A stretch of 40,649 nucleotides of DNA from Gammaproteobacteria bacterium (lineage in GTDB: Bacteria > Pseudomonadota > Gammaproteobacteria > JACCYU01): contig JACCYU010000160.1 in assembly GCA_013696315.1 (NCBI GenBank), positions 1-40,649 of the forward strand, read 5' to 3'. Shown piece after piece: positions 8,975-26,001 of the stretch. Every line of letters begins with the position of its first letter. Positions within the stretch are counted from its first letter, which is position 1. Made by a program: the position numbers and the translations under genes. The notes beneath the pieces were generated by a model, which saw only the letters and a list, made by a program, of their open reading frames with translations, was not told the origin of the DNA and did not search any database.

Positions 8975-10417
8975 TTGCCCGAGCACATTCTGTTCTTGAC
9001 CGGCAAGCTCGCCGAGCGGAGCTTGCAGCAGGTGCTCGAGGGTATGCAGCCGACCGAATTCACTTACCACGTGCATCAGATTGGCATCAGCGTGGCTGCG
9101 CTGATGTCTACCGACCTTATCAGTCGCCGTCTCAAGGGAACCTTCGACGTCGATCGTATGGTCCTGCCCGGCCACTGCCGCGGCGACATCGACGCGCTGT
9201 CCCATCAATTCGGCGTGACGGTCGAACGGGGACCCAAGGAACTGAAAGACCTGCCGCAGTACTTCGGACGTGAGGCCGCGCAAGTCGATCTGAGCCGGTT
9301 CGACGTGCGCATCTTCGCCGAGATCGTGGATGCGCCGGATCTGTCGATCGAAAAAATCCTCGAGCGCGCGCAAGAATATCGTCGCGACGGCGCCGACGTG
9401 ATCGATCTGGGCTGTCTGCCCGCCACGCCGTTCCCGCACATGGCGGACGCGGTGCAAGCCTTGAAGCAGGCGGGCTTTCAGGTCAGCGTCGATTCGCTGG
9501 ACGCCGACGATCTGCGGCGCGGCGCAGAGGCGGGCGCGGATTACCTGTTGAGTCTGACCGAACAAAGTCTGGCGCTCGCCGATGAAGTCGACGCCACACC
9601 AGTGCTGATTGCCGCCGAAACAAGCGAACTCGATTCGCTGTTTCGCGCGATCGATACCTTGCTTGCGCGCGACCGGCGCTTCATTGCCGACGCGGTGCTG
9701 GACCCCATCCACGCGGGATTTACCGATTCGCTTCTGCGCTATCACGCCTTGCGGCAGCGTTATCCAGACATCGAAATCATGATGGGCACCGGCAACCTCA
9801 CCGAGCTGACACACGCCGACACCGCCGGCAATACCGCGTTGCTAATGGGGATTATTTCAGAGCTGGCCATCGGTCATATTCTTACCACGGAGGTCAGCCC
9901 GCACTGTCGCACCGTGATACGCGAGTGCGATCGCGCGCGACGCATCATGTATGCTGCGCGCGCGCAGAGCACACCGCCGCGCCTCATCGACGAGGGGCTG
10001 CTGGCACTGCACGAACGCCGCCCATTCCCGTACAATCTCGACGAGGTCAAGGCCACCGCCGCGGCCGTCAAGGACCCCAATTACCGCATCCAGGTCACCG
10101 AGGAAGGCGTGCACATTTACAACCGGGACGGGTTTCATTCAGGCCACGATCGCCAGGATCCCCTCATTTTCTATCCGCATCTGGATGTCGCGGACGACGG
10201 CGGTCATGCGTTTTATCTCGGCATGGAACTGGCGCGCGCGCAGATCGCTTGGCAGCTTGGCAAGCAGTACAGTCAGGACGAGGAACTTAAATGGGGCTTC
10301 GCGGTAGAGCAGCCCGCGGAAGACCTGGAGCAATTCGCGGAAGAAGGGTCCACCCTCAAAGACCGGCGCCAGAAACGCGCCCAGACCAGCAAGAAACGCC
10401 GGCAACATAAGGCATGA
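8975..10417 (+). CDS. Dihydropteroate synthase-like protein (DUF6513), H4MPT biosynthesis
   Basis: Member of the archaeal-type DHPS-like family found in methanogens and in methylotrophs that carry H4MPT. In them it is thought to join p-aminobenzoate-derived and pterin precursors, although the exact reaction is debated. A family-specific N-terminal domain is followed by a TIM-barrel DHPS-like half: RRDGADVIDLGCLPATPF, a strand giving VSVDSLDADD, then FIADAVLDPIHAGF and MMGTGNLTELTHADTAG. The start is a TTG at 8975 preceded by GGAGA five bases away; I found no ATG giving the conserved N-terminus. The 480 residues end in a strongly basic tail. The stop overlaps the next ATG by four bases. Confidence 0.88.
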   Translation: MPEHILFLTGKLAERSLQQVLEGMQPTEFTYHVHQIGISVAALMSTDLISRRLKGTFDVDRMVLPGHCRGDIDALSHQFGVTVERGPKELKDLPQYFGREAAQVDLSRFDVRIFAEIVDAPDLSIEKILERAQEYRRDGADVIDLGCLPATPFPHMADAVQALKQAGFQVSVDSLDADDLRRGAEAGADYLLSLTEQSLALADEVDATPVLIAAETSELDSLFRAIDTLLARDRRFIADAVLDPIHAGFTDSLLRYHALRQRYPDIEIMMGTGNLTELTHADTAGNTALLMGIISELAIGHILTTEVSPHCRTVIRECDRARRIMYAARAQSTPPRLIDEGLLALHERRPFPYNLDEVKATAAAVKDPNYRIQVTEEGVHIYNRDGFHSGHDRQDPLIFYPHLDVADDGGHAFYLGMELARAQIAWQLGKQYSQDEELKWGFAVEQPAEDLEQFAEEGSTLKDRRQKRAQTSKKRRQHKA

Positions 10418-11004
10418 TCCGCGAGTGCATCGTCACCACCCGCTGCGAAGACGGTAACGCACATGTCGCGCCCATGGGCGTGCACGTAAGCGTCGCGCCC
10501 GCAGGCGCGCAAGTAAGCGATAATGCGCTGATGATCGCGCCGTTCAAGCCCTCCGCGACCTTGGAAAATCTGCTGCGCGAGGGCAATGCCTGTATCAACT
10601 ACACAGACGATGTGCGCGTGTTCGCCGGCTGTTTGACCGGGCGACGCGACTGGCCGGTGCGCGCCGCGGATCATATCCAGGGCTTGCGGCTCGCTGATTC
10701 TCTCGCGCACGCCGAGGTCGAAATCGCGCGTATCGACGGAGACGAACTGCGGCCGCGGTTCCACTGCCGGGTGGTATTCGAGGCGACGCACGCGTCGTTT
10801 CGCGGCTACAACCGCGCGCAGGCCGCCGTACTCGAACTGGCGATTCTGGTGAGCCGTCTCGACCGTCTGCCGTTAGATAAAATTGAAAGCGAGATCGAAT
10901 ACTTGAAAATTGCAATCGAGAAAACCGCCGGGCCGCGCGAGCGCCAGGGGTGGGAGTGGCTGATGGCGAGCATTGACGCGCATGACAAGCGCGCTCCGTC
11001 ATGA
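10414..11004 (+). CDS. DUF447 family protein, H4MPT/methanofuran gene cluster
   Basis: Matches the DUF447 family, found in methanogens and in H4MPT-using bacteria next to cofactor genes. The family is predicted to have a flavin-reductase-like split-barrel fold; its reaction is not known to me. The N-terminal IRECIVTTRCEDGNAHVAPM and the motif INYTDDVRVFAGCLTG are characteristic, and a helical C-terminal half contains LEIAILVSRLDRLPLDKI-like sequence (here LELAILVSRLDRL). Length is 196 residues. ATGA overlaps on both sides (10414 and 11001) show translational coupling with the DHPS-like gene and mfnB. Confidence 0.85.
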   Translation: MIRECIVTTRCEDGNAHVAPMGVHVSVAPAGAQVSDNALMIAPFKPSATLENLLREGNACINYTDDVRVFAGCLTGRRDWPVRAADHIQGLRLADSLAHAEVEIARIDGDELRPRFHCRVVFEATHASFRGYNRAQAAVLELAILVSRLDRLPLDKIESEIEYLKIAIEKTAGPRERQGWEWLMASIDAHDKRAPS

Positions 11005-11741
11005 CCCGCCTGCTCGCCAGCGTCACGAATATCGAAGAAGCCGAGCTGGTGATCAGCGCCGGCGCGGATATCGTGGACCTCAAGGATCCGGCGCGCGGCG
11101 CGCTCGGCGCGCTGCCGTTGTCGAGGATTCGAGCAATCGTAAACGCGGTCGCAGGACGGCGTCCCGTTAGCGCCACAATCGGCGATCTGCCGGCCGACCC
11201 CGATGCATTATCGTGGACCGTCAACGACACCGCGGCCACCGGCGTGGATTTCGTCAAGGTCGGCTTGTTCGGCCCGGAATACTTCGACCAATGCCTGCAT
11301 GCGCTAGCGCACAATGCGGCCGCTGGTGTCCCCCTCGTGGCCGTGTTGTTCGCGGACAGGCAACCTTACTCTAATGTCGTGGCTCGCATAGCGGACACGG
11401 GTTTCAAAGGCGTCATGCTCGACACGGCCGATAAAGCCGGCGGCGGCCTGCGCCAGCATCTGTCCCTGGAGGAGTTATCGGCATTTGTGGCCGCGGCCAG
11501 GGCACAAGGTCTGCTGACAGGGCTGGCGGGCAGCCTGCGCATGGCGGACATCGGACCGTTGCTTGCCGCCGACGCCGATTACCTTGGCTTTCGCACCGCG
11601 TTATGCGGCGGTCATGCGCGCACCGCCGCTGTCGATCCCGCGGCGGTGGTCGCCATACGGGCCTGCCTGCGCCGGGCGGAAACCTACGAACCATCGACAT
11701 CGACATGGATTCGCGCGACGATCGACGCATCGGATGCATAG
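11001..11741 (+). CDS. mfnB: (5-formylfuran-3-yl)methyl phosphate synthase MfnB
   Basis: Makes the furan precursor of methanofuran by condensing two molecules of glyceraldehyde 3-phosphate in the cytoplasm. The 246-residue TIM barrel has the family block AGADIVDLKDPARGALGAL with Lys28. VDFVKVGLFG carries Lys86, and GVMLDTADKAGGGL carries a conserved Asp; these match the active-site lysines and acid described for the methanogen enzyme. It is the last gene of a three-gene coupled operon. Together with mfnD, mfnE and mfnF at the other end of the window it supports methanofuran-dependent formyl transfer in this organism. Confidence 0.92.
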   Translation: MTRLLASVTNIEEAELVISAGADIVDLKDPARGALGALPLSRIRAIVNAVAGRRPVSATIGDLPADPDALSWTVNDTAATGVDFVKVGLFGPEYFDQCLHALAHNAAAGVPLVAVLFADRQPYSNVVARIADTGFKGVMLDTADKAGGGLRQHLSLEELSAFVAAARAQGLLTGLAGSLRMADIGPLLAADADYLGFRTALCGGHARTAAVDPAAVVAIRACLRRAETYEPSTSTWIRATIDASDA

Positions 11742-11825: not shown

Positions 11826-12908
11826 TTAGATATTCAGCGGCACGCCCTGCTCGGTCAGCAATTTCTTGAGTCCGCGCATGACCGGAAAAACTTCTTGGTT
11901 CCAGTCGGCGCCCTGCATGTCGAACGCCTTCTGCTCCTCTTCCACGATCCAGCGGTCTTCCGCGAAAATGCTGTTGGTGAACCAGGTGATGAAGGGCCAC
12001 AACAGAGTGATCAGGCCGGGAATGGCGGGCCGCCTGATCATCATCAGGCCGTAGGTGTGATTGATACGCTGCGCGCGATCCACCGGGATGTATGCATTCC
12101 ATAGATCGAGCGCGGGTTCCTGGCTACCAGCAGTCCAGAACCTTAAGGTCTGATAGGGGTACTCGGTGCGGATGGTCATCAAATCCTTCGGACGCTGCTC
12201 GGTGGGCGCGGGTCGCCTGCCCAGCATGAACTTTTCGCCCAGCGGCTGTCGCCCGCTCGCGCGAGAGAATGTGTAATCGGCCTCTATCCAGTTCTCGCCG
12301 CTGCGCAGTTCCCTGAACATCGTCCTGATGCCGCCCATCAGCCTGCGATGCAGAAACTGATGGTTCATGTCCATCAGGTTCTCGTGCATGAACGAATAGT
12401 GGCAGTTGACCCGCCGATCGAGGTAGCGCGTTTTGTAACGGGGGTCGTCGGCTGACGGCACGTCCGGAAAAGGGACTTCATGCTGCGTGTTCACATCGCC
12501 GGGAAACACGAACACGAGCCCGTACGCCTCCCGGCAAGGGTAGCTGCGCACGCCGTTGGGAAGCGACTTGTCCTTGTTCAGATACGGCACATTGACGCAT
12601 CTGCCGGTGCGATCGTAAGTCCAGCGATGATAGCCGCACTGCAGGCGCTCACCGACCACTACACCCGCGCGTAGCGGCACCTGCCGGTGCGCGCATCGAT
12701 CCTCCAGCGCGAACAAATCGTCGCTCGCGGTTCTCACCAGCACGATGGGCTCGCCCGCGAATGAAACGCCCAGCGGCTTGCCCCGCCTTACGTCTTGTGA
12801 GCGGCTGACCGGGTACCAGTAGTCCGGATGAATCCCGGTCGCTCTCAGGTCCCGCGCGGTATTCGAATAATCCTGTGAGTCAGGCAAAACATCGGTGACG
12901 GCAGACAT
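11826..12908 (-). CDS. Rieske [2Fe-2S] non-haem iron oxygenase, substrate unknown
   Basis: Oxygenase alpha subunit that would insert oxygen using an electron partner not encoded here. The Rieske cluster ligands are Cys72-x-His74 and Cys91-x2-His94 (CAHRQ, CGYHRW). The mononuclear iron site is Asp180, His183 and His187 in HENLMDMNHQFLH. A strongly hydrophobic segment at about 294-315 (AIPGLITLLWPFITWF) suggests a membrane-bound form and a lipid-like substrate; this is inference. The start has GGGAG upstream. It is the last gene of the phosphonate/lipid array, 114 bases after the CDP-alcohol transferase. Hydroxylation of an aminoethylphosphonate lipid or of a polycyclic lipid are both possible, and sterol-modifying Rieske enzymes of methanotrophs are a precedent. 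Confidence 0.85.
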   Translation of the reverse strand: MSAVTDVLPDSQDYSNTARDLRATGIHPDYWYPVSRSQDVRRGKPLGVSFAGEPIVLVRTASDDLFALEDRCAHRQVPLRAGVVVGERLQCGYHRWTYDRTGRCVNVPYLNKDKSLPNGVRSYPCREAYGLVFVFPGDVNTQHEVPFPDVPSADDPRYKTRYLDRRVNCHYSFMHENLMDMNHQFLHRRLMGGIRTMFRELRSGENWIEADYTFSRASGRQPLGEKFMLGRRPAPTEQRPKDLMTIRTEYPYQTLRFWTAGSQEPALDLWNAYIPVDRAQRINHTYGLMMIRRPAIPGLITLLWPFITWFTNSIFAEDRWIVEEEQKAFDMQGADWNQEVFPVMRGLKKLLTEQGVPLNI

Positions 12909-13022
12909 AGATTTCTCCCTTATATCGAGGCGTGCTCAGGACATGACGGCATGATAACGCGAGCCAAATGCGTCGCCAAACGTCGATGCCTAACGGTGCG
13001 ACGGATAAGCCTGAAGCGGGAA

Positions 13023-13628
13023 TTAAGGCAGATCAGTTTTCTCGTCCAGCAGTCCCCGCCAGTGCAATTGGTACGCTGCCCACGCGAACAGGGGCGCTCC
13101 GACCGTGGCCGCCGCCAGCAGCGGCGCCATCCAGTCGAGCAGCGCGGCCGCGGGAATCACGATCATCGCGTCATCGGGATCGAAGCGCGGTAATGCGCGC
13201 AGTTCACCGGCGCGGCGTCCATGCTGCTGCTCGACTCGCGTAACCCACCACAGTATGCAGATGATCGCCGCACCCGCGACGATACCCATGGGTATGGCCG
13301 ACGCACAAAACAGACCATCGCGCAGGCCGATACCGATGCCGACGAAAGCCAGCGCGTTGCACGAGGTATCGGCAATCAGGTCGTACTGGTGACCCCAAGG
13401 GCTGGACTTGCCGCTGGCGCGCGCCAGTTCGCCATCGGCTCGATCCAGCAGCATGGACAGCAGAAACATCGCCGCCGCCCAGTACTGCCAATCCAGCGCG
13501 AACATCGCCGCCGCCGCGAGACCCGACACCAGGCGAGCCGTGGTGATGTGATTGGGCGTCACCGGTGTATCGATCAGCGGTCGTACGCTGGCGCGCACGC
13601 TGCGGTGTAACCAGGTGTCGTGACTCAT
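13023..13628 (-). CDS. CDP-alcohol phosphatidyltransferase family protein
   Basis: Integral membrane enzyme that exchanges CMP between a cytidylylated group and an alcohol. The full family signature DGxxAR(8)GxxxDxxxD is present: Asp65-Gly66, Ala69-Arg70, Gly79, Asp83 and Asp87. Several hydrophobic helices follow. The 201 residues are the normal size. The gene lies two bases after the AEP transaminase stop, in the same operon as AEP synthesis. This suggests it transfers AEP from CMP-AEP to a lipid alcohol such as diacylglycerol, giving a phosphonolipid. The specificity is inferred from context; it could instead use an ordinary CDP-lipid. Confidence 0.88.
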   Translation of the reverse strand: MSHDTWLHRSVRASVRPLIDTPVTPNHITTARLVSGLAAAAMFALDWQYWAAAMFLLSMLLDRADGELARASGKSSPWGHQYDLIADTSCNALAFVGIGIGLRDGLFCASAIPMGIVAGAAIICILWWVTRVEQQHGRRAGELRALPRFDPDDAMIVIPAAALLDWMAPLLAAATVGAPLFAWAAYQLHWRGLLDEKTDLP

Positions 13629-13630
13629 GA

Positions 13631-14701
13631 CTATACTTGCAGGACTGTGTGGAATGCGGCTAGCAGGCGATCGATATCGGCCGTCGTGATCGCGCCCATC
13701 ACGGCCACGCGAAAAATAGTGCTCGCGAACTTGGCCTGTCCCGCGTAAATGATGAAGCCGCGCGTCTTTAAGCCGTCGTGCAAGGTCTCGTAGGTTATGT
13801 CCACGGGCAGCCGGTACGCGCTCAGCACCACCGAGGCCTGACTCTTCGCCACCAGCGGTTCGATACCCAGAGCCGCGAGCCCATGCCTGAGCTTGTCCGC
13901 GAGCGCGCGATAGTGATCATGCCGCGCGGTCCTGCCGCCCTGCGCTTCGAACTCGACGAGCGCCTGCTTCAGCGCGTAGAAAACATGCACCGGCTGGGTG
14001 AACGGCGTGTCACGCCGGTCCTGTTCGCGGCAGTAGTTCGCCAGATCCAGATAAACCGATCGCGCCGTCCCCGCTGACAACTGCTCCCGCCGTGCGATGA
14101 CAAACGATACGCCGGGCGCGCCGTGCAGACATTTATTCGCGGTAGCAGCGCAGGCGGCGATGCCGGGTTGCTCGAAATCGATTGGTTCCGCGCCGAAGCT
14201 GCTCACCGCGTCGACCAGCAGGTGCACACCGCGCGCGCGGCACAACTCACCCAGCGCCGCCAGCTCGTTGAGGCGACCCGTCGTGGTCTCGTGATGCGCT
14301 ACCCCGATGTGACTAAGTTCCGGCTGCGCGTTCAGTAACTCCTCTATGCCTTTGATCTCAAGTTGACTTTCCCAGGGATGCGCAAGCGCGCGGTGTTCGA
14401 TGCCATGCGCGTGGGCGATGGCGGTCATGCGCTCTCCGTAGACGCCGTTTTCAATGACCAGCAGCCTGCCGTCGCGTGGCACCAGGCTGGTCAGCATCGC
14501 TTCCACCGCGGCGGTGCCGGAACCCGCAAGCAGCACGGCCGCCCACGCATCGTCCGAGAGCCCGTAGACGCGCAACAAGCTGTCGCGGATCGATGCCTGC
14601 AAATCGGCGAATTCCGATTCGCGATGGCAGAGATCGGGACCGGACAGCGCCTGACGCACTTCCGGCGAGAGCGTGACGGGTCCGGGATTCAGCAGAATCA
14701 T
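13631..14701 (-). CDS. phnW: 2-aminoethylphosphonate--pyruvate transaminase
   Basis: PLP enzyme interconverting phosphonoacetaldehyde plus alanine and AEP plus pyruvate. The opening LLNPGPVTLSPEVRQAL and the phosphate-binding GSGTAAVEAML are typical, DAVSSFG holds the cofactor aspartate, and the Schiff-base lysine is Lys190 in TANKCLHGAPG. The 356 residues fit the family. PhnW is often catabolic, but here it is coupled by a four-base overlap to phosphonopyruvate decarboxylase, with PEP mutase upstream and no phosphonatase (PhnX), so the biosynthetic direction is more likely. Confidence 0.93.
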   Translation of the reverse strand: MILLNPGPVTLSPEVRQALSGPDLCHRESEFADLQASIRDSLLRVYGLSDDAWAAVLLAGSGTAAVEAMLTSLVPRDGRLLVIENGVYGERMTAIAHAHGIEHRALAHPWESQLEIKGIEELLNAQPELSHIGVAHHETTTGRLNELAALGELCRARGVHLLVDAVSSFGAEPIDFEQPGIAACAATANKCLHGAPGVSFVIARREQLSAGTARSVYLDLANYCREQDRRDTPFTQPVHVFYALKQALVEFEAQGGRTARHDHYRALADKLRHGLAALGIEPLVAKSQASVVLSAYRLPVDITYETLHDGLKTRGFIIYAGQAKFASTIFRVAVMGAITTADIDRLLAAFHTVLQV

Positions 14702-15873
14702 GCCGGCCCGGTTGAGGGCGTCGACGGCGCGCCGATGTGCGCCATAAAGCGTGCGCGCACCTCGGCCGGCGACAAGGTCGGGCGCGGCAGAACTTCAAGT
14801 GTGCCGGTGCGAATCTTGAGGCAACCGAAGCGCGGTCCAATCCTGCCCGTGCCGCCGAGCAGATGATCCAGAATCGAGAGGTTGTCATCCTCAAGCGCGA
14901 TTGGATAACCACACGCACGGGCAATGCCGGCAAACGAAACATTGTTGGATACCGTCGCCTGCGCGCCGGTCGAATCGTGCGCCTCGTTGTCGAGCAGAAT
15001 GTGCACCAGATTGCCGCCGCCGTAGGCGCCCAGGGTCGCGAAATTGCCCATGCGCATCAATGCCGCACCGTCGCCATCGATGACGACCACCCGCAGGTCC
15101 GGGCGCGTCATCGCTAGTCCCAGCCCCAGCGATGACGCGCACCCCATGGAACCGACCATATATAAGTGATTCGGCCGATCGGAGAGCGCGTACAACTCGC
15201 GGCCCGTGTAACCGGTAGTCGCGATAACAACCGTGTTGGGCTGCGCGGTCATCTCGACCACACGTTGCAGAACCTTCGCGCGCGAGAGGCGCGCCGTGAG
15301 CGTATGTGCGCCGCCGATCCTCGCCTTCTGGTCGCGGTCGTAACGCAGCTTGTGCCGCTGCGTCGAGTCGGAGCGCGCCACCGAATCCTTGCGCATGACC
15401 AGCGCGTAGGGGCGCATCATGTCGCTCATGTGCGACTCGGCACGCCGCAAGGTCTCTTCGATGCGGCCAGCGTCGGTCGGGAAGTATTCCCAGGGAATAC
15501 GCATCGCGTCCAGCACACCACCGGTCATCTCGCCCATGAGCTGATGTTGCGGCTCATCGTTAAGCTCCGGATCGCCGCGCAAGGTCACGATCAGCAGCAT
15601 CGGAATGCGAAACGCATGCGCCAGCGACACCAGCGGGTTGACCGCGTTGCCCAGCCCGGAATTCTGCATCATGGCGATCGGGCGCTGCCCACCCAGAAAC
15701 GCGCCCGCGCAAATCGCGACCGCGTCGCCTTCGTTGGCGGATGACACGTAAACCAGATTGTCGTCGGCGATCGCGTAATCGATGAACGGCGTCAGAAACG
15801 AGCACGGCACTCCGGCATAGCGGTGGTAACCGAAGTCGCGTGCGCGCTCGACGAAGTCCCGCGCCTCGATCAT
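14698..15873 (-). CDS. ppd: Phosphonopyruvate decarboxylase
   Basis: Thiamine-diphosphate enzyme that decarboxylates phosphonopyruvate to phosphonoacetaldehyde, the irreversible step that drives C-P bond formation. The N-terminal PYR domain contains the conserved glutamate in SSANEGDA (about residue 48). The C-terminal domain has the ThDP/magnesium motif from GDG at 267 to DNEAHDSTG at 295. The 391 residues match the family. It overlaps pepM by four bases at its start and phnW by four at its end, giving pepM, ppd and phnW as one coupled AEP pathway. Confidence 0.93.
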
Positions 15874-17528
15874 GACTCGCGCTCAGGCCCCGCATGCCGC
15901 TGCTGACCATGCGCGAAATCACTGGCGCGGCTCAAATCCTCCATGCGATTCACGTCCAGCCAGTGGCCATGAATGTAGAGCACCTTCACACGTCTACCCG
16001 TCTCGATCAGGCGGTTGAGCAAGTCGGTGACACCGAGGCTGTCGAAGTCCGCACGCTCTCGCAGATCGTCCATTTCTTCGAGCAGCCATTCCCGGCCCGG
16101 TCCCACCACTCTCAGCATGCCGATCCAGCGTCCGGAAGGCTGATCGTCGTCATGGTTCGCGTGGTACGCGACACGCAAGAGATCGACGTCCTCGTGGAAC
16201 AGGGCATGGTCGTCGGGGCGCGAGCACCACGCGAGATCACGATAGTCGCGGCTCGCTTCGCGCGGCAGTACGGAGTCGATCACCACCATGATCTCGCCGC
16301 GCATGTCCAGCAGGTCGGACAGAATGTAACGGCGAAACAGCAGATCGCCATAGGTGATGACGGTGTCCTCCCTGATGGCCTCGCGCGCGCAGGCCAGCGA
16401 AGCAAGCTCGCCGCTGATCATGTAGTCAGGATTGCGTAGCACCTGGACGCCGCTCAGATCGATGGCCTCGGCCTTGTAGCCGGCCACGACCGCCGTGTGA
16501 TGTACCTGCTGGCTCTTGAATTCGTCCACCAGACGCTGCAGGAGCGGCTTGTCGCCGATGGACAGCATGACCTTGGGACAATTCTCGGTGAGCGCCTCCA
16601 GCCCCCGGCCGCGCGTGGCCGCGAGCACCACCGAATGCCGGATCGTGCCGGCGGCGAAATAGCGCTTTTCCGCGCCGGCCAGTTCGTCCGCGCCCTGCAG
16701 GCGGAAAATCTCCCTGACCGGCGCGATGTGATCTTCCACGCTGGCGATCGTCTGTGTGGTCTGAATTTCCTCGGCGACTCTCCGCATGGCCGCCACCGCG
16801 CCACGGAGCATGTGATTTGCCCATATCACCGTGCTGATGCCCGCCATGAGAAACACTTCGGTGGGCGTGCTGTAATATTTGGTCGGGACGATCACGAGCG
16901 GCAGGCGATTTTCCCAGCGCTGCGCGAACGCCAGCACCTCGGTGGCCTGCGACTGCGCGCTGTGTATCAGTATCGCGTCCGCGCCCGCGTCCTGATAGGC
17001 GCGCGCGCGGTGCAGCGCCTCATCCAGCCCCCAGCCGGCGACCAGTGCCTCGATCCGCGCCACCACGCAAAAATCCGGATCGAGCTGGCTGTCCTTGCCG
17101 GCCTTGATCTTGCCGCTGAATTCATCGACATCGCACAGGGGCTGGCGCACGCCCTCGATGAAGCTGTTGGTCTTGGGAAATAATTTGTCTTCAATGCATA
17201 CGCCGGCCACGCCGCGCTGCTCGAGCTTTTTCACCAGCCGCCGCGTGTTGTTGAAATTGCCGTAACCCGTATCACCGTCCAGCAGAATGGGAATCGAGGT
17301 CGCGTCACACATGAATTCCAGCATGTCCACAACCTGCGTCCAGCTCGCCTCGTTGTTGTCACGCACGCCGAACTGCGCGGAGATCGCCAGACCGCTGGCC
17401 CAGATGCCCTTGAATCCCGCTTCCTCGACAATGCGGGCGCTGATACCGTTGTGCGCCTCCATGATGAATTCGAGCTGCGGCGAATTTAACAGCGCGCGGA
17501 GCTGAGCGCTTTTCGAGGGAGTCTGCAT
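15870..17528 (-). CDS. pepM: Phosphoenolpyruvate mutase fused to a nucleotidyltransferase
   Basis: Residues 1 to about 290 form a PEP mutase that makes phosphonopyruvate, the C-P bond-forming step of nearly all phosphonate synthesis. Its diagnostic motif is [11 protein letters not shown] (113-123), preceded by WASGLAIS (43-50) and the metal-binding DGDTGYGNF from 84. Residues from about 295 to 552 resemble an NTP-transferase ([15 protein letters not shown], then [17 protein letters not shown]), plausibly a cytidylyltransferase for AEP. Such fusions are known; the fused domain lacks the most canonical glycine-rich loop, so its activity is less sure. There is no good ribosome-binding site before the ATG at 17528. 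Confidence 0.92.
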
Positions 17529-17657
17529 TAAGAAGCTAAGTGACTAATCGGAAAAAGGGTCGAACCGTAATGTGCGCAAAAGCGCGGCCAAAGGCAAGTC
17601 TGCCGGCGAACCGTGGTCTTGTGGCCGAATTGGCAACCAAATAAGCGGTCGCGTTCA

Positions 17658-18389
17658 CTACCGGTGCGCGACCAGCCGCGGCACTATTTCGCTGCGCGCA
17701 CGCTCGATATCTTCCGGAAAATCGATCTCCAGCCACGGCAGGCCGGTGATATCCTCGAAGCCGAACTGGTCCGGTTTGGCCAGCAGCACGTCTCGCAGGG
17801 CCTCCTCAAAAGGCGTATCCAAGGCGCCGGCTTCGACATACCGTGCGGTCACGGCTAGCAGCTTTTGCGTTACGGGATTCGACAGGCGGAAAAAACCAAC
17901 CGATTCACCAAGGTAATCGCAAACGACATCGACCTGCTTTCTGAATTCGACCAGACGCCCGTCGCGCACGCAGAGCTTGACCGGTTCGTCGCCGGGCTCC
18001 ATGTCGCGATCCAGTAGAAAGCAGTTGGGATGCGGAGACGACATCAGACGCTCGATCATGCGGTGGTCGTAAAGCACGTCCGCGTCCATCAGCAACACGT
18101 TGTCACCAGCGAAGCACTCGCGCAGGCGCCACAGGGTCACGATGCTGCCTTGGCGGTAGTCCGGATTTTCGATCAATCGCACGGCGTGGCCGCCGTCAAG
18201 TTCCGCGAGCGCTTGCGCAATGTCGGCAGCCTGATGCCCTACCCCGATAGTCAGGTTATCGATACCGCAGTCCCGCAGGATCTCGAGATGCCGCTGCAAC
18301 AGCGTTTTCCCGTCGAATTCGAGCAGGCATTTAGGTGTGTCTAACTCTAGGCGCCGCCCCACGCCGGCAGCCAGCATCACAGCTTTCAT
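17658..18389 (-). CDS. Nucleotidyltransferase, phosphocholine-cytidylyltransferase-like
   Basis: Single-domain NTP-transferase of 243 residues with the classic nucleotide-binding loop LAAGVGRRL (6-14), the following PKCLLEFDGKTLLQ and the metal-binding VLLMDADVLYD. The segment DEPVKLCVRDGRLVEFRKQ is like LicC-type cytidylyltransferases. Chosen start: ATG at 18389, where the conserved N-terminus begins; the frame is open further upstream only as a shadow of the hpnL-like gene. It lies between the hpnL-like gene and pepM, so CMP activation of AEP (as done by PntC-type enzymes) is a reasonable guess. A phosphocholine or sugar-phosphate substrate cannot be excluded. Confidence 0.82.
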   Translation of the reverse strand: MKAVMLAAGVGRRLELDTPKCLLEFDGKTLLQRHLEILRDCGIDNLTIGVGHQAADIAQALAELDGGHAVRLIENPDYRQGSIVTLWRLRECFAGDNVLLMDADVLYDHRMIERLMSSPHPNCFLLDRDMEPGDEPVKLCVRDGRLVEFRKQVDVVCDYLGESVGFFRLSNPVTQKLLAVTARYVEAGALDTPFEEALRDVLLAKPDQFGFEDITGLPWLEIDFPEDIERARSEIVPRLVAHR

Positions 18390-18432
18390 CGGTAGCGGAT
18401 CCGTGCGATTTGATCCATCACGCGTCCGCCGA

Positions 18433-19422
18433 TCAGGATTCCATAATCCGGCGTCGCCAGGAGTGCCGGCCTTCGACGAACTGCCAGGCGAGGATGCCCG
18501 GCAGCCCCAGCGCCAGTTCGCGCACGCGCTTGGCGAGCGAGAGCGCCAGTGCGACTGTCGGCGGTACGCCCAGCAGGCCGCCGAGCAGGATAAATCCACT
18601 TTCCTGCACGCCCAGCGCGCCGGGCACCGCGAACGCCGCCGAACGTATGGCCTGTCCCAGGCTTTCCAGGATCAGCGCCTCGACGAGACCGACCGGATGC
18701 CCCAGAAACCATAGCGCGAGCCACACCTCGCCGGCGCCCAGCACCCACCCCGCCAGACGCCAGCCGCAGGCACTCCAGATCGCGTATCGATCGCGGTAAA
18801 GCGCTACCACTTCGCGATCCAGCGCCACCACACCGCCGGTTATAGACTGCCACCCGCCGCCCTGAGCCAGGCGTTCCAGCCCGCGCGCGAGTACCAGGAA
18901 CACGCCGGCGCGTTGCGCGATGACAAACGAACCCGCGATAACGCCGAAGACGGCGATCCCGATCAACAGTTCCGCCGCCGCGTCACTGGACCCGGCGTGC
19001 CACAGCAGCAGAACCACACCCATCAATGCGAACGCGATCAACGTCACCATACCGGCGGTGAGATCGACGATTACCGAGGCGCCGGCCGGCACGCCCGACA
19101 TGCCGCCACGACGCAGTAATCGCACGCGCAGCAGGTCACCGCCCACTTGCGCGACCGGGAACAGGGAGTTGACCGATTCGCCCAGCCAGCGGATCCACAC
19201 GAGTTCGCTCAATGATTGACCGTGGCCCCGCGGCAACAGCGCGCGCCAGCCGAGCACATCCAGCAGCAGCGGCGCCAGATGAAACACGGTGATCCACGCA
19301 AGCCCCCAGCCGGCCTCGCCCAGCACGCGCAGGACATCACCCAGACCCTGATAAACGGTGACGCCGATAAACAGGCTCAGGCCCGCAAGCCAGGCGCCGT
19401 ACAGTGCGAAGCGCAGTTTCAT
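18433..19422 (-). CDS. hpnL: HpnL-like integral membrane protein
   Basis: Multi-helix membrane protein of the UPF0104/lysylphosphatidylglycerol-synthase transmembrane superfamily, which includes the hopanoid-associated HpnL proteins. The 329 residues contain about seven hydrophobic segments, the family-like LGESVNSLFPVAQVGGDLLR and the C-terminal GALGVQESGFILLGGLLG. No soluble catalytic domain is present, so it is more likely a lipid transporter or flippase than a transferase. The ATG at 19422 overlaps the hpnA stop (ATGA), which fixes the start. It sits at the boundary between the hopanoid genes and the phosphonate genes and could serve either. Confidence 0.82.
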   Translation of the reverse strand: MKLRFALYGAWLAGLSLFIGVTVYQGLGDVLRVLGEAGWGLAWITVFHLAPLLLDVLGWRALLPRGHGQSLSELVWIRWLGESVNSLFPVAQVGGDLLRVRLLRRGGMSGVPAGASVIVDLTAGMVTLIAFALMGVVLLLWHAGSSDAAAELLIGIAVFGVIAGSFVIAQRAGVFLVLARGLERLAQGGGWQSITGGVVALDREVVALYRDRYAIWSACGWRLAGWVLGAGEVWLALWFLGHPVGLVEALILESLGQAIRSAAFAVPGALGVQESGFILLGGLLGVPPTVALALSLAKRVRELALGLPGILAWQFVEGRHSWRRRIMES

Positions 19423-20414
19423 GGCGCCACCGCCGCTCCGCGCAAAAACCACGCGACAGCGTCGCGCAAGGCCTCAAACGCCGGCCGCGGCGCATACGCC
19501 AACTCGCGTTGGGCCTTGTCGCTGCTGTAGTACATGCGTTTTTTCGCCATGCGTACGCTATCCACTGTCAGCGGCAGGTTCTCGGCGCGCAGCAGCCGAC
19601 CGCAGCCTTCCGCAACATACGCGATCGGCAGCAACACGTTGTGCGGCACTCTGATCCGCGGCGGACGTCGGTCGGACAGCTCCGCGATGGTCGTCAGGAT
19701 CTGTTTTAGCGATAGATTCTCGCCGCCCAGCACATAGCGTTCGCCGATGACGCCGCGCTCCAGTGCGCGCAGGTGCCCGTCGGCCACGTCGTCCACATGC
19801 ACGATATTCAGGCCGGTATCTACGTACGCTGGCATGCGGCCTTTGGCCGCGTCCGCCACCATGCGCCCGGTGGGTGTGGGCTTGATGTCGCCAGGGCCGA
19901 CCGGCGTAGAGGGGTTGACGATCACCGCCGGCAGGTGCGCCTCGGCAATCAGGGCATGCACTTCGGCCTCGGCCAGAAACTTGGAACGTTTGTAATCGCC
20001 TATCATGTCGTCAAGCGTGACTGGCGTGTCCTCGTCGGCGGGCGCGCCATCCCGCGTTGTCCCCAGGGTCGCCACACTGCTGGTGTAAACCACGCGCCTG
20101 ACTTTCGCCGCGAGCGCCGCCCGCATGATGTTACGCGTGCCCTCGACATTGGCCGCGTAAATGGTGTCGGGATCTAGCGCCCACAGCCGGTAATCGGCGG
20201 CCACGTGAAACAGCGTATCGCACCCTGTTAACGCCCGCTCCAGCGACACTCGATCGGTGAGATCGCCCACCACGCGCTCGACGCTAAGCCCCTGGAGGTT
20301 ACGCGGATCGCTGTGCGCCCGCGTGAGCACGCGCACCGCCTGACCCGCGTGTAACAGACGCCGCGCGACCGCCGCGCCCACAAATCCCGTCGCGCCGGTT
20401 ACCAGGGTCGTCAT
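19419..20414 (-). CDS. hpnA: Hopanoid-associated sugar epimerase HpnA
   Basis: Extended short-chain dehydrogenase/reductase of about 331 residues. It has the NAD(P)-binding TLVTGATGFVGAAVARRLL at the N-terminus, VVYTSSVATLG and the catalytic-type YKRSKFLAE (YxxxK). The annotation HpnA comes from its regular presence in hopanoid loci; its substrate has not been firmly shown. The start at 20414 begins the Rossmann fold directly; the longer open frame upstream has no conserved sequence. It is coupled to the hpnL-like gene downstream and lies 85 bases after hpnN. Confidence 0.9.
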   Translation of the reverse strand: MTTLVTGATGFVGAAVARRLLHAGQAVRVLTRAHSDPRNLQGLSVERVVGDLTDRVSLERALTGCDTLFHVAADYRLWALDPDTIYAANVEGTRNIMRAALAAKVRRVVYTSSVATLGTTRDGAPADEDTPVTLDDMIGDYKRSKFLAEAEVHALIAEAHLPAVIVNPSTPVGPGDIKPTPTGRMVADAAKGRMPAYVDTGLNIVHVDDVADGHLRALERGVIGERYVLGGENLSLKQILTTIAELSDRRPPRIRVPHNVLLPIAYVAEGCGRLLRAENLPLTVDSVRMAKKRMYYSSDKAQRELAYAPRPAFEALRDAVAWFLRGAAVAP

Positions 20415-20499
20415 GACGGTCGATGGCAGGCGCCAGCGCGGCGCCGCAATCGGAAAATTAACCGCGGCGTATTCCGCGGCAGGCAATCAAAATTGTGGG

Positions 20500-23175
20500 T
20501 CATGGGGGATCCTGACGCCAGCTCAGCAGCGCCGGCAAGACTATAAGCGTCACGCCCAGAGTCAAGAGAACGCCGACGGTGAGCAGAAACCCGAGACTTG
20601 CAGTGCCCGGATGGGCGGAAAACGCAAGGCTGCCAAAACTGACGATGGTAGTCAACGCACTGTAGAACACCGCCCGCGCCGTGCTGGTGCGCAGCAAGGT
20701 GGCGTACGAACCCGGCTGGCTGCGCAGCCGGTGCATCATGTGAATGCCGTTGTCCACGCCGATACCAAGCAGCAGCGGCAAGGCGATGATGTTGGCGAAA
20801 TTGAACGCGTGACCGCTCAGCGTCACCACCGCGCCGGTCAGCGCGCCGCCCAGCAACAGCGGCGCCAGCACCAGCAGTGCGTCGCGCGGCCCACGCATCA
20901 GCAATAACAATAACACCGCGATCACCAGCAACGACGTGACAAACGCCTGCTGAAACGCGGCGACAACCGCCTCGCCTGCTTTCAGACTGATCACCGGCAG
21001 GCCGGTCGCGTGCGGTGCAAGTGCACTTACCTGCGCCACGAACTGGCGCAACGCCTCGCTGTCGCCCAAGTCGTCTTTGGGGAAGGCTTCCACGCGGTAG
21101 GCGCCACCCGGCGCGCGCCACTGCGCCGCCAGCGGCGGGGGCAGGACTTTAAATCCTACGGGGCCGGCCTTGAGCGCCGTGTCCAGCACATTCAATGTAT
21201 CCGGCAAGGTAGCCAGCAGACTGCGATCCAGCGCCGCCAGGCTGTGCGCCGCCGCGACCTGCGTGCCATCGCTCAGATCATCGAGCAGCCGTCTTATATC
21301 GGCGCGCAAGCGTGCGGTGAGCGCGGGCCAGCGCGGCTCGGCGCCGCTGTGCAGATGCCGCGCGAGCGCCGCCTGAAAATCCTCAAGCGCCGCGCGCTGT
21401 TCCGCATAAGACGGCGGGTCTACTTTAGCGCCAGTCATCAGGGTCAGCCCCATGACCAGCCGCATGTCGTCGATGATCGCGAGCTTGCGTACCTGCCGCG
21501 CGGGCACGTGGTCGGGCAGGCTGACCGCGCGGCTGACCGAGGGCAGCTCGCGCAGGCGCTCCGCCACCGTTGCGGCCGCGGTCGCGTCGGGCTCAAGGAC
21601 GGAAATACTCCATGGCGGCGTGTCGTCACTGTCCACGAGGTCCTGAAAAGTCGCGACCGATTCGCTGTCGGGATCGCGCAGGTTGAGCGGATTGTAATCG
21701 AAGCTCGCAAACGGAAGGCTCAGCGCCGCTACTGCCGCCAGCGCCAGCGCGGTGCGCCTTATCGCGCGCGCATGCCGGCGCGGAAACGCAGCCACCGCAT
21801 CGGTGTAACGCCCGAACGACGCGGGCCCGGATGATTCAGGCCCAGACCATGTAGACAATATGTCGCCACTCGCGCGCGATGGGAACAGGGTCAGCAACGC
21901 GGGCAGCAGGCTCAAGCTGGTAATGAGGCTGATGAACACGCCGGCGCCGGCGATCAGTCCCAGCTCCGAAACGCCTGCGTATGCAGTCGGCACGAACGCG
22001 AAGAAGCCCACCGCCGTGGTCGCCGCCGCGAGCGCCAGCGAGGTGCCGACATGGCTCACGGCCGTGCGCAGAACGGCTGACTGTTCGGCGCCGCGCGTAT
22101 TCAGTTCACGGCACCGCAGACACAGATGGATCGCGTAGTCGGCGCCAAGACCGATGTTCATGACCGCGAAAGCGACCGAGATCAGGTTCAGATGCCCTAT
22201 TGCCACCGCCGCGAAGCCCGCGGTGATTATCAGGCTGGCCAGGAGTGTCGCCACCGACGCGGCGACCATGCGCGGCGAACGCATGCCGGCGAGCAGCACC
22301 AGTATTACCAGCGCTAAAGAAACCACCGCGCCGGTGCCGGCGCCGCGCGCGACGCTTTGCATCTCGTCGTACTCCAGCGCCGCGGCGCCGGTTATGCGCA
22401 AGGTCACGCCCTGGGAACCGTCCAGCGCCATGGCGTGTTTCAGTCCTTCCAGCGCGTTCATGGCGGGGGCGGCCGGCAGCCAGTTGCCGTAATCCAGCCG
22501 CGGCTGAGCGAGAATGAACTGCCGTGCGCCCGAGTCCGATGCGGCATTGCCCAGCATCAGGCCCTGCCAGGAAAGACGATGGAAGCGCCCTGCCCCTTGC
22601 GCCTCGATGGCGGTCTCCAGCGCTTTCAGCAGTGGCGACAAGTCCAGCTTCTCGCCGTCATCCACTGCGTTCAGCGCCTGTGTCAGCATTTGCTGCAGTC
22701 CGCGCAAGGATTGATCCTGCGCGAGCGTGCCCAGAAAGGGCTGCACCTGCGCGAGGTCGTCCGCGAGCTGCCGCAATTCCGGTACATCGAGGTACAGAAA
22801 CGCATGCCGGTCGAAGAACGCGCCGGCACCGGGGCGCGATACCGTCCTGAACAGCGTGTTGGTGCGCTTTAGTTTATTTGCGACCCGGTCGGCGGCGGCG
22901 CGCGCGAGTTCTGGCGTATCACTTTCGATCACCAGCAGCAGGGTGTCCACATACTGCGGAAACGCGCGTTTATAGGTTTCGTAGTCCTGGCGAAACGGCA
23001 ACTCGGCCGATAGCATGTCCGCGCGATCGGTATCCATGCCGAGATGCTGGGACGCGTAATATACGGAGCCGACGGCTATAACGACGAATGACAGCACCAC
23101 TGCCCGCGGCGCGCGGGCCACGCGACTGATCCACCATCCTATGGCGACGCTCAAGGCAGTTTCCAGTCGGGACAT
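20500..23175 (-). CDS. hpnN: Hopanoid-associated RND transporter HpnN
   Basis: Large inner-membrane RND/MMPL-type exporter of 891 residues, required in other bacteria for moving hopanoids to the outer membrane. It shows the two-fold layout of the family: an N-terminal helix (VVLSFVVIAVGSVYYASQ), a long periplasmic domain, a helix bundle with NIGLGADYAIHLCLR, a second periplasmic domain and a second bundle with LLLGIGVDNGIHMMHRLRS. The paired GADYAIH/GVDNGIH motifs are typical. The gene is 154 bases downstream of hpnG, and the gap carries a near-perfect direct repeat. Confidence 0.93.
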   Translation of the reverse strand: MSRLETALSVAIGWWISRVARAPRAVVLSFVVIAVGSVYYASQHLGMDTDRADMLSAELPFRQDYETYKRAFPQYVDTLLLVIESDTPELARAAADRVANKLKRTNTLFRTVSRPGAGAFFDRHAFLYLDVPELRQLADDLAQVQPFLGTLAQDQSLRGLQQMLTQALNAVDDGEKLDLSPLLKALETAIEAQGAGRFHRLSWQGLMLGNAASDSGARQFILAQPRLDYGNWLPAAPAMNALEGLKHAMALDGSQGVTLRITGAAALEYDEMQSVARGAGTGAVVSLALVILVLLAGMRSPRMVAASVATLLASLIITAGFAAVAIGHLNLISVAFAVMNIGLGADYAIHLCLRCRELNTRGAEQSAVLRTAVSHVGTSLALAAATTAVGFFAFVPTAYAGVSELGLIAGAGVFISLITSLSLLPALLTLFPSRASGDILSTWSGPESSGPASFGRYTDAVAAFPRRHARAIRRTALALAAVAALSLPFASFDYNPLNLRDPDSESVATFQDLVDSDDTPPWSISVLEPDATAAATVAERLRELPSVSRAVSLPDHVPARQVRKLAIIDDMRLVMGLTLMTGAKVDPPSYAEQRAALEDFQAALARHLHSGAEPRWPALTARLRADIRRLLDDLSDGTQVAAAHSLAALDRSLLATLPDTLNVLDTALKAGPVGFKVLPPPLAAQWRAPGGAYRVEAFPKDDLGDSEALRQFVAQVSALAPHATGLPVISLKAGEAVVAAFQQAFVTSLLVIAVLLLLLMRGPRDALLVLAPLLLGGALTGAVVTLSGHAFNFANIIALPLLLGIGVDNGIHMMHRLRSQPGSYATLLRTSTARAVFYSALTTIVSFGSLAFSAHPGTASLGFLLTVGVLLTLGVTLIVLPALLSWRQDPP

Positions 23176-23285
23176 CGGCAGCGAGTACTCAGGCCGGCGG
23201 AGGTGTTACGAACGTGCGGTAATCAGGCGGCGGCCTTGGCTGGCGTGAGGGAATTCAGCAAACGGACAGCGCTCCGGGTGCTATT

Positions 23286-23320
23286 TTGTGTTAAGCGCCA
23301 AGATTGTGCTAAGCGCCAAG
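23286..23320. repeat. Tandem 17-base direct repeat upstream of hpnN
   Basis: TTGTGTTAAGCGCCAAG (23286-23302) is followed after one base by TTGTGCTAAGCGCCAAG (23304-23320), differing at one position. The repeat lies in the 154-base hpnG-hpnN gap, about 110 bases before the hpnN start on the minus strand. It could be a pair of operator half-sites or a simple duplication. Confidence 0.7.
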
Positions 23321-23329
23321 GCTCGTACG

Positions 23330-24046
23330 CTACGTCGCGAAAAAGCGACCGTCAGCCAGCGACGCGACATCGGTCAGGGTGGCGCGCGCGGCGCGAAAGC
23401 CCAGCGCCAGACGCGAGACCGCCGCCCAGTCCAGCGGTCGCGCCAGCACCTGCCGGATGACCGCGCCGATGCATACGTGCCCGCCGTTGTCGATCACGCC
23501 GCCGAGCCACGTCGGCACGCGGGCGACGGAGGTATCGGAAACCGCGCGGATCGCCACAAACGGCACTTGCGCCTCGCTGGCCAGCGCCGCCAGCGCGGCG
23601 CTTTCCATGTCGGCCGCCATTGCGCCTGAACGCAGCATGAGCGCGCGCTTCTGCGCGCGCGTGGCGAGTACCGTCGTGCTTTCGATCAGCGGATCGACGT
23701 GGATGACGAAGCGATTTTTAAGCTGCTCGCACAGCCAGCCGTGCCAGGCCGTATCCACCGAGTAGGATCTGAGGTCCGTGTCGAGAATCACGCCGGGCAC
23801 CAGCAGATTACCCGGCGCCAGCGCGCGGTCTAGTGCTGCCGCCACCCCCCAGCTCATCAACGCGGTGGCGCCTTGAGCCAGCAATTGTTCACCGGCGGCG
23901 CGCGCGCGGCTGGCGCCCATGCCGGCCAGCGCCACTCTTACGTCGCAGGCTTGTGCAACGTTCACTTCCATCGGTGGCTTCAGCGGCCTGCGGATCAAGG
24001 TGCGCGCCTCACCATCCAGCGCGGCGACGATCCCTATGCGCGTCAT
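23330..24046 (-). CDS. hpnG: Hopanoid phosphorylase HpnG (adenosylhopane nucleosidase)
   Basis: Purine-nucleoside-phosphorylase fold enzyme of 238 residues that removes adenine from adenosylhopane to give (phospho)ribosylhopane, a precursor of bacteriohopanetetrol and aminotriol. The opening IGIVAALDGEARTL, the central LMSWGVAAALDRALAPGNLLVPG, the substrate-binding MAADMESAALAALA and the later AIRAVSDTS fit the MTAN/PNP fold. The start at 24046 overlaps the shc stop (ATGA), so I discard the longer open frame to 24274. It acts directly after HpnH, which is encoded on the divergent strand. Confidence 0.92.
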   Translation of the reverse strand: MTRIGIVAALDGEARTLIRRPLKPPMEVNVAQACDVRVALAGMGASRARAAGEQLLAQGATALMSWGVAAALDRALAPGNLLVPGVILDTDLRSYSVDTAWHGWLCEQLKNRFVIHVDPLIESTTVLATRAQKRALMLRSGAMAADMESAALAALASEAQVPFVAIRAVSDTSVARVPTWLGGVIDNGGHVCIGAVIRQVLARPLDWAAVSRLALGFRAARATLTDVASLADGRFFAT

Positions 24047-26001
24047 CCTAGCGCTGCCACCCGCAGTTTCCGGTAACGCGCCAGCGCCCACAGCGGGAAA
24101 TACTTCTGATAACCGTGATATTTCAGATAGAACACGCGTGGGAAGCCCGGCGCCGTAAACGTATCGTCGCGCCACAACCCGTCGGCGCATTGCGCATCCA
24201 GCAGATAGCGGGCCGCCCGATCCAGTGCCGGCGAGTCTGCCTCGCCCGCGGCCATCAGCGCCAGCATCGCCCACGCCGTCTGAAATGAGGTGCTCTCCAC
24301 TGCATCGCGAACCGCCGGCCGGTCACCGAGATAGCTGTCGTTGCCCTCTCCCCAGCCGCCGTCGGACTGCTGTGTCTCTTGCAGCCAGATCACGGCCCGC
24401 CGTACCGCGGGATCGTCCCGCGCTACGCCCACCTGCTCCAGCGCTGCCAGCACCGACCAGGTGCCGTAAATGTAATTGGTGCCCCAGCGCCCGTACCAGC
24501 TCCCGTCGGCTTCCTGTTGCGCGCGCAGGTACGCGATGCAGCGATCCAGGGCCTGCTGACAATGCGGATCGCTGGCGGCGAAACGGTCCAACGCGATCGC
24601 GCAGCGTGCGCTCACGTCCGCGGTCGGCGGGTCCAGCAGCGCGCCGTGATCCGCGAACGGTATCGCGTTCAGGTATTCGCGCGTGTTATCGACATCGAAG
24701 GCCGCGAATCCGCCATTGCGCGACTGCATGATACGGATCCACTCGGCCGCGCGGCGTGCCGACTCGTGGTTGCGGAGATCGTCTGACTGCATCATCGCCC
24801 AGGCCACCGCGCTCGTATCGTCGGTGTCGGGATAATGGCTGTTGCTGAACTGAAACGGCCAGCCACCGCCCGCGGCAAAGGGGCGATCGCGCCGCCAGTC
24901 GCCGGGTTCGTCGCGCAACTGGCGGTGGCGCAGCCACGACAGACCACGCTCCGCCGCTTGCGTCTCGCCGGCTTCCTGCATGGCCAGACAGGCGAGCGCC
25001 GTATCCCACACGGGCGACATGCAGGGCTGACAGTACGCGCTGTCGCCGTCCACCACCAACAGATCATCAAGCGCCCGACGCGCATCCTGGCGGTAAGGGT
25101 GCGTCGCGGAATAGCCGCGCAGGGCCAGCGCTTCGTAAGAGTTGACCATGGCCGGAAAGATTGCGCCCAGGCCCCCGCGACCGTTGCGGCGCTCGATAAT
25201 CCAGTCTTCGGCGCGCTGTAGCGCACGGTTGCGTATCCAACGGGGCACGAACGGCTCCAGCCAGCGCCCGGTCCGATCCAGCAACAGAAACAGCCGCTTG
25301 AGCACTGACGGCGCCGGGAAATAATCGGTGACGTTTTCCGGCGGCACGTCGAACAGCTCGCTCAAACCCACAGCTTGGGGATTCCGGGCCTGCGCGCGCA
25401 GGCTGCACAGGATCAGCAACGGCACCATGACGGTGCGCGACCAGTACGATACCTTGTCGATATGAAACGGAAACCAGCGCGGCAGCAGGATGATTTCCAC
25501 CGGCATGAACGGCACCGCGCGCCACGGCACCTGGCCGAACAGCGCCAGCGCGATGCGCGTGAAAACGTTCGCGCGGGCAGCACCCCCACGCGCCAGAATA
25601 GCTCGCCGCGCCGCCGCCATATGTGGCGCTTCGCAGTCGTCGCCGGCAAGCTTCAGCGCGTAATACGCCTTGACCGAACAGCTCAGATCGAAATCCCCAC
25701 CCTCGTAAAGCGGCCAGCCGTGATGCAACGCCTGATCAAGTCCCGCCTGGTCTTCCATAGACTGGTGCGCACGGATGAATACCGCGAGCTTCGCCTGCAG
25801 CGCGGTATCGACTTCGCCCATGAAGTGCATCATGAGAATATATTCGGCGGGAATCGTGCAGTCGGCTTCCAGCTCGTACGACCAGTGCCCCGCGCGCTGT
25901 TGCGACACCACCAGCGCGCTGACCGCGCGCTCAACCGCCGAGTTCAGCAGGTCGCTTTCACTCAGCCGCCACCTTGCGCGCGCCACCCGATCCAGCATCA
26001 T
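24043..26001 (-). CDS. shc: Squalene--hopene cyclase
   Basis: Membrane-associated monotopic enzyme that cyclises squalene to hopene/hopanol, the committed step of hopanoid synthesis. About 652 residues, the usual size. The catalytic DXDD motif is DTDD at about 392-395 (YPDTDDTSAVAWAM). Several QW repeats are visible: QSRNGGFAAFD, QQEADGSWYGRWG, QQSDGGWGEG, QCADGLWRDD. The most likely start is the ATG at 26001, which overlaps the squalene synthase stop as TGATG; a TTG at 26004 and a second ATG at 25998 are in frame. It is coupled on both sides, to sqs and hpnG. Confidence 0.97.
   Translation of the reverse strand: MMLDRVARARWRLSESDLLNSAVERAVSALVVSQQRAGHWSYELEADCTIPAEYILMMHFMGEVDTALQAKLAVFIRAHQSMEDQAGLDQALHHGWPLYEGGDFDLSCSVKAYYALKLAGDDCEAPHMAAARRAILARGGAARANVFTRIALALFGQVPWRAVPFMPVEIILLPRWFPFHIDKVSYWSRTVMVPLLILCSLRAQARNPQAVGLSELFDVPPENVTDYFPAPSVLKRLFLLLDRTGRWLEPFVPRWIRNRALQRAEDWIIERRNGRGGLGAIFPAMVNSYEALALRGYSATHPYRQDARRALDDLLVVDGDSAYCQPCMSPVWDTALACLAMQEAGETQAAERGLSWLRHRQLRDEPGDWRRDRPFAAGGGWPFQFSNSHYPDTDDTSAVAWAMMQSDDLRNHESARRAAEWIRIMQSRNGGFAAFDVDNTREYLNAIPFADHGALLDPPTADVSARCAIALDRFAASDPHCQQALDRCIAYLRAQQEADGSWYGRWGTNYIYGTWSVLAALEQVGVARDDPAVRRAVIWLQETQQSDGGWGEGNDSYLGDRPAVRDAVESTSFQTAWAMLALMAAGEADSPALDRAARYLLDAQCADGLWRDDTFTAPGFPRVFYLKYHGYQKYFPLWALARYRKLRVAALG

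Follow-up and report, generated by a model that had tools for sequence, protein, structure and literature searches.

What does a Rieske oxygenase do at the end of a run of genes for hopanoid and phosphonate synthesis? The gene that raises this question lies at 11826-12908 on the minus strand of the window, by which we mean the whole stretch of 40,649 nucleotides that was analysed, and it is an intact open reading frame encoding a protein of 360 amino acids. The first-pass annotation had placed it at the end of a phosphonate/hopanoid array, and indeed it ends a same-strand series in the order SQS-SHC-HpnG-HpnN-HpnA-HpnL-NTP-PepM-Ppd-AEPT-CDPOH-Rieske, with a gap of 114 bp between it and the CDP-alcohol phosphotransferase gene that precedes it. 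All minus-strand, the hopanoid genes comprise a member of the squalene synthase family (26001-27104, PF00494), squalene-hopene cyclase (SHC; 24043-26004, TIGR01507, 777 bits), an HpnG-like phosphorylase that scores below the cut-off of its model (23330-24274, TIGR03468), the hopanoid transporter HpnN (20500-23175, TIGR03480), the hopanoid-associated epimerase HpnA (19419-20486, TIGR03466) and the hopanoid-associated membrane protein HpnL (18433-19452, TIGR03476). They are followed on that strand by a nucleotidyltransferase (17658-18599, PF12804), the true start of which is probably downstream of 18599, a PEP mutase fused to a nucleotidyltransferase domain (15870-17528, TIGR02320 and PF12804), phosphonopyruvate decarboxylase (14698-15873, TIGR03297), 2-aminoethylphosphonate (AEP) aminotransferase (13631-14701, TIGR03301) and a CDP-alcohol phosphatidyltransferase family protein (13023-13628, PF01066), which is outside the conserved family context.

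It can be seen that over 13023-27104 the SQS, SHC and HpnG/N/A/L genes run straight into the phosphonate and CDP-alcohol phosphotransferase genes. The nucleotidyltransferase in the HpnL-PepM interval resembles CDP-inositol-type cytidylyltransferases, and PepM already has a nucleotidyltransferase domain of its own. HpnH, the adenosyl-hopene transferase, is encoded just beyond the array on the plus strand (27426-28544, TIGR03470), and its presence indicates that the organism makes extended, side-chain hopanoids. In the 114-bp gap ahead of the Rieske gene (12909-13022, minus strand) a ribosome-binding-like GGGAGA precedes the ATG start; a sigma-70-like match at 12979-12951 is weak and no better than chance.

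The protein combines a Rieske domain (PF00355, 4.6e-24, residues 31-123) with a VanA_C catalytic domain (PF19112, 4.9e-16, residues 167-334), and no second Rieske protein of the same kind was found in the host genome at E<=0.001. Across 56 aligned relatives the ligands of the Rieske [2Fe-2S] cluster, C72, H74, C91 and H94 (C-x-H ... C-x2-H), are invariant, as are D180, H183, H187 and D318. The first seven of these residues had been listed in the first-pass annotation as the cluster and iron ligands, and all seven are present; however, D180 aligns with the aspartate of the NLMD motif in dicamba monooxygenase and by this alignment is the bridging, electron-transfer residue rather than an iron ligand. 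The carboxylate ligand beside H183 and H187 is most likely D318, which was missing from the list, because of its conservation and its place in a helix. In its cluster motif, its 2-His-1-carboxylate site with bridging aspartate (D318 being the putative carboxylate) and its fold, the protein is a member of the Rieske non-heme iron oxygenase superfamily. The histidine pair of the iron site is spaced H-x3-H, a feature that among the proteins examined is common only to an SdmA-like protein (L085, from genome G030), whereas dicamba monooxygenase, SxtT and most of the other Rieske oxygenases examined have H-x4-H.

A hydrophobic segment ahead of D318 (together codons ~297-319, 11952-12020, minus strand) had been thought unusual for a soluble enzyme, a possible site of membrane insertion and a pointer to a lipid substrate. 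We found that its best 19-residue Kyte-Doolittle mean was 1.31, at residue 298, which is under the usual transmembrane threshold and quite ordinary beside unrelated Rieske oxygenases of the same class, where the range was 0.4-1.54. In the AlphaFold model (mean pLDDT 87.9, pTM 0.86) the segment forms the N-terminal half of a helix of the catalytic domain, residues 299-332 (pLDDT about 92-94), and D318 is predicted to lie on this same helix. As modelled, the segment does not look transmembrane, and membrane insertion through it was rejected on the basis of its hydropathy and its position within this helix. Since it is part of a catalytic-domain helix, the segment by itself is no evidence for a membrane location or a lipid substrate.

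A scan of bacterial genomes gave 593 relatives, the best 80 of which were 58-77% identical over nearly the full length. The clade to which the protein belongs is strongly conserved, spans 46-89% identity and is marked by the signature SFMHENLxDMNHQxLH together with H-x3-H; in a sample of 369 genomes from the class, orthologues were 61-100% identical and nothing else reached E<=1e-40. Relatives were also present in plasmid records, from Burkholderia and Cupriavidus (57-62%), Mycetohabitans (mostly 54-56%), Streptomyces (48-54%), Komagataeibacter/Novacetimonas (about 49%) and Acetobacter (46-47%). All of these keep SFMHENLxDMNHQxLH. In a rapidly built tree, whose outgroup branches are long and which can be relied on only to show that the clade is a unit, they group together (support 92), separately from SdmA-like proteins and from other Rieske proteins.

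The nearest described family is that of SdmA, the 4-methylsterol oxygenase of methanotrophs and myxobacteria. Its model (NF052579) was the sole full-length NCBIfam match for 56/56 relatives, always a distant one, and the window protein resembles SdmA in a match over residues 19-352, in H-x3-H, in a hydrophobic stretch ahead of a D-x3-(I/V)-E-x-E-Q helix and in a polycyclic triterpenoid context. However, the window protein is only 27-31% identical to the SdmA-like protein of G030 and scores 168 bits against an equivalog cut-off of 600, and the host genome has neither the partner protein SdmB nor a sterol (oxidosqualene) cyclase, SHC being its one cyclase. Membership of SdmA was rejected on these grounds. 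Vanillate/dicamba-type monooxygenases (VanA_C; DdmC 3gb4, SxtT/GxtA) share the Rieske plus VanA_C fold and include the best solved-structure matches, but they differ in sequence, in their H-x4-H spacing and in acting on small soluble substrates.

Carriers of the clade are almost all hopanoid producers. In the class sample, which was chosen without regard to the Rieske gene, SHC was above cut-off in 51/369 genomes and the Rieske orthologue was present in 8/369, with SHC in 8/8 carriers (p=8e-8; 5e-6 by genus). Likewise, in one family that includes several Nevskia-labelled genomes (the family of G100), within which genomes are not independent, the Rieske gene was found in 17/58 and SHC in 21/58; all 17 carriers had SHC, and there were no carriers among the 37 SHC-negative genomes (p=3e-11). 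Among carrier genomes of the wider scan SHC was present in 44/50, this set being the top of a similarity-ranked list with uneven taxon sampling. After duplicates had been merged (G092=G115, G171=G130, G215=G095, G284=G114) there were 54 distinct carriers from several phyla, of which 48 had SHC, 51 had HpnH and 52 had one or the other; the two without either, G122 and G135, are both partial genomes of 1.4 Mb. The carriers include isolates of Streptomyces, Cerasicoccus, Salinisphaera and Hankyongella. We did note that three loci, L008, L048 and L069, are titled Rhodospirillales, Verrucomicrobia and Lysobacteraceae and yet their genomes form one family with Nevskia-labelled genomes; taxon names of many metagenome-assembled records are thus unreliable, and phylum-level claims rest on isolates and on counts.

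This co-occurrence is not a by-product of gene clustering, since the Rieske gene rarely adjoins hopanoid genes. Within flanks of up to 10 kb per side there were usually none, the Rieske gene being mostly far from them (an exception is L028, where it is about 7 kb from HpnA/HpnG/SHC), and no conserved operon partner was found among the loci across the family. The gene is present in only 8/51 (16%) of the SHC-positive genomes of the class, which argues for an accessory, optional modification and not a core step.

As carriers are almost only hopanoid makers across very different bacteria, the most likely function is a hopanoid modification, and we conclude with good confidence that the protein is a hopanoid-tailoring oxygenase. 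The second possibility offered by the first-pass annotation, an SdmA-like oxidation of a polycyclic lipid, therefore has good support, with a hopanoid as that lipid, from the co-occurrence, the match of every relative to SdmA and the shared histidine spacing. The substrate would be a hopanoid (bacteriohopanepolyol) from the SHC/HpnH pathway encoded alongside. By analogy with other members of the superfamily, the oxygenase component would receive electrons from a reductase that is shared or encoded separately, and would activate O2 at the iron held by H183, H187 and D318, close to the Rieske cluster of the adjacent subunit. Such activation beside an adjacent subunit's cluster is standard for the superfamily. 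We found no literature link between Rieske or ring-hydroxylating enzymes and hopanoids in open-licence papers; the superfamily is known, and neither the clade nor its substrate class seems to have been assigned.

Hopanoids are sterol-like lipids, major in bacterial membranes, and some of the oldest molecular fossils derive from them. The Rieske family offers a concrete candidate that comes from co-occurrence and not from gene clustering, and its members occur across several phyla, also in vinegar bacteria, which are easy to grow. If the assignment is correct, an oxygen-dependent hopanoid modification could be ascribed to a gene, genome sequences could be used to predict unsaturated or hydroxylated hopanoids, and what is now labelled an 'aromatic ring-hydroxylating dioxygenase' would become a lipid enzyme.

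Which hopanoid reaction is catalysed is a more tentative matter. The likeliest product would be a hopanoid with a delta-6 double bond in ring B, a reading that we put a little short of an even chance and that comes from the chemotaxonomy of a few named groups; it is judged about twice as likely as hydroxylation of the side chain. There is mechanistic precedent in DAF-36/Neverland, the sterol 7,8-desaturase, a Rieske enzyme that puts a ring-B double bond into a polycyclic lipid. Members of the clade occur in Burkholderia and in Acetobacter/Komagataeibacter. Delta-6 hopanoids are documented in Komagataeibacter and other Rhodospirillales, and a 2025 survey of 54 Alphaproteobacteria reports 49-82% unsaturated hopanoids in acetic-acid bacteria, with 82% in Acetobacter pasteurianus (PMC12583986, Table 3). 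In Burkholderia cenocepacia a cyclitol ether has been annotated as delta-6 (PMC8560942). In Sphingomonadales, by contrast, the SHC-positive species have essentially no unsaturated hopanoids (PMC12583986, Table 3), and the Rieske gene is correspondingly rare: SHC was found in 19/159 genomes, and the Rieske gene in 1/19 of these, the centre genome itself.

Some points count against delta-6 desaturation. A membrane 'sterol desaturase' of the fatty acid hydroxylase superfamily has been proposed for the same role of desaturating hopanoids (PMC6460317, PMC12583986), although it is an unrelated, integral-membrane di-iron protein and does not cover all producers of unsaturated hopanoids. A weak point of the delta-6 reading is that both plasmid-borne Rieske genes recorded for Acetobacter pasteurianus IFO 3283-01 (L137, L138) are interrupted or truncated at insertion sequences, a natural loss; strain 386B has an intact copy on a plasmid.

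The main rival to delta-6 desaturation is hydroxylation of the side chain at C-31, perhaps C-30, of bacteriohopanetetrol derivatives to give pentols and hexols. Rieske enzymes do hydroxylate sp3 carbons, and nearly all carriers have HpnH and hence side chains. The enzymes for pentols and hexols, like those for unsaturated hopanoids, are stated to be unknown, with no pentol-enzyme candidates near hpn clusters (PMC12583986), and acetic-acid bacteria make pentols too (PMC12583986, Table 3). The two features come apart in some species: Afipia broomeae has delta-6 but no pentol, and Rhodopila globiformis, Nitrospirillum amazonense and Sphingomonas mali have pentol but no delta-6 (PMC12583986). A bacteriohopanepentol cyclitol ether is annotated in B. 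cenocepacia (PMC8560942), which, having both delta-6 and pentol forms, fits either reaction. However, pentols occur in 6/8 SHC-positive Sphingomonadales species (PMC12583986, Table 3), the order in which the gene is so rare, and under a simple beta-binomial model this rarity is at odds with a general pentol hydroxylase at p about 2e-4; common pentols in an order where both the gene and unsaturation are nearly absent argue against such a hydroxylase and fit a desaturase. The link to HpnH cannot be used to tell ring from side chain, because almost every SHC-positive genome of the class also has HpnH (of 369 genomes, 49 have HpnH and 51 SHC), and this test was set aside as uninformative. Methanotrophs make aminopentol, and yet G030, G187 and G225, which have SHC and a sterol-type cyclase and are presumed methanotrophs, were without an orthologue at E<=1e-40. 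Hydroxylation at C-31 is on balance unlikely.

Less probable again is some other oxidation of the hopanoid, such as ring hydroxylation, methyl oxidation of the SdmA type or delta-11 desaturation. The relationship to SdmA and the co-occurrence with hopanoid synthesis would suit such reactions; against them, the SdmB partner is missing, the epimerase of the array scoring 493 bits with the HpnA model but no more than 255 with that of SdmB (cut-off 600), a different candidate family has already been proposed for delta-11 desaturation, and no such products have been reported broadly.

A further possibility is that the 12-gene array as a whole makes a hopanoid phosphonate, a lipid class not yet described. 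The Rieske enzyme would then oxidise a hopanoid and the phosphotransferase would couple CMP-activated AEP to a hydroxyl of the hopanoid; where the phosphonate genes are absent, only the oxidation of the hopanoid would take place. Linkage of SHC and PEP mutase in a hybrid hopanoid/phosphonate cluster has been described in Roseomonas, for which a terpene-phosphonate has been suggested (PMC8776678). We regard a hopanoid phosphonate from the array in the window as improbable.

That the protein is an ordinary soluble oxygenase of aromatic compounds, as its database name in the plasmid records implies, is very unlikely. Its predicted structure does match SxtT/GxtA, dicamba monooxygenase and NdmA best (Foldseek against the PDB: E 3.5e-21 to SxtT; TM-score 0.66-0.72), but over the full length the protein is about 20-24% identical to any solved enzyme, the clade stands apart with its own signature, there are no catabolic neighbours and the family follows hopanoid producers.

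Least credible of all is 1-hydroxylation of AEP or a phosphonolipid made by the adjacent genes, the first proposal of the first-pass annotation: the gene does come after the pepM-ppd-AEP aminotransferase-CDP-alcohol phosphotransferase set both in the window and in the genome of the congener G001, where the tail of the array keeps its order, and adjoins the same set in a different orientation in the betaproteobacterial locus L004, but in flanks of up to 10 kb per side of 83 loci (L002-L084) phosphonate genes were found only in the window genus and L004, acetic-acid bacteria carry the clade and reportedly have no phosphonate clusters (PMC8776678), and AEP hydroxylation was rejected because it is SHC, rather than phosphonate genes, that the family tracks.

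Some lineages have neighbourhoods of their own. A gene for a small FMN-reductase/flavodoxin-like protein lies directly upstream on the same strand in 20 loci (L042:304-771 and 19 others), and its product is a possible electron donor in that lineage. In the acetic-acid bacterial loci L103, L104, L106, L112 and L113 the Rieske gene is on plasmids and adjoins cobalamin-independent methionine-synthase-like genes, with DUF1852 also beside it in the Acetobacter plasmid loci, and a different role in Acetobacter/Komagataeibacter is possible. In Burkholderia cenocepacia the gene is on a 1.1-Mb replicon. In the window itself, genes for DUF6513, DUF447 and MfnB (4-HFC-P synthase) at 8975-11741 on the plus strand converge on the Rieske gene; these probably belong to tetrahydromethanopterin-linked C1 metabolism, and the host may be a methylotroph.
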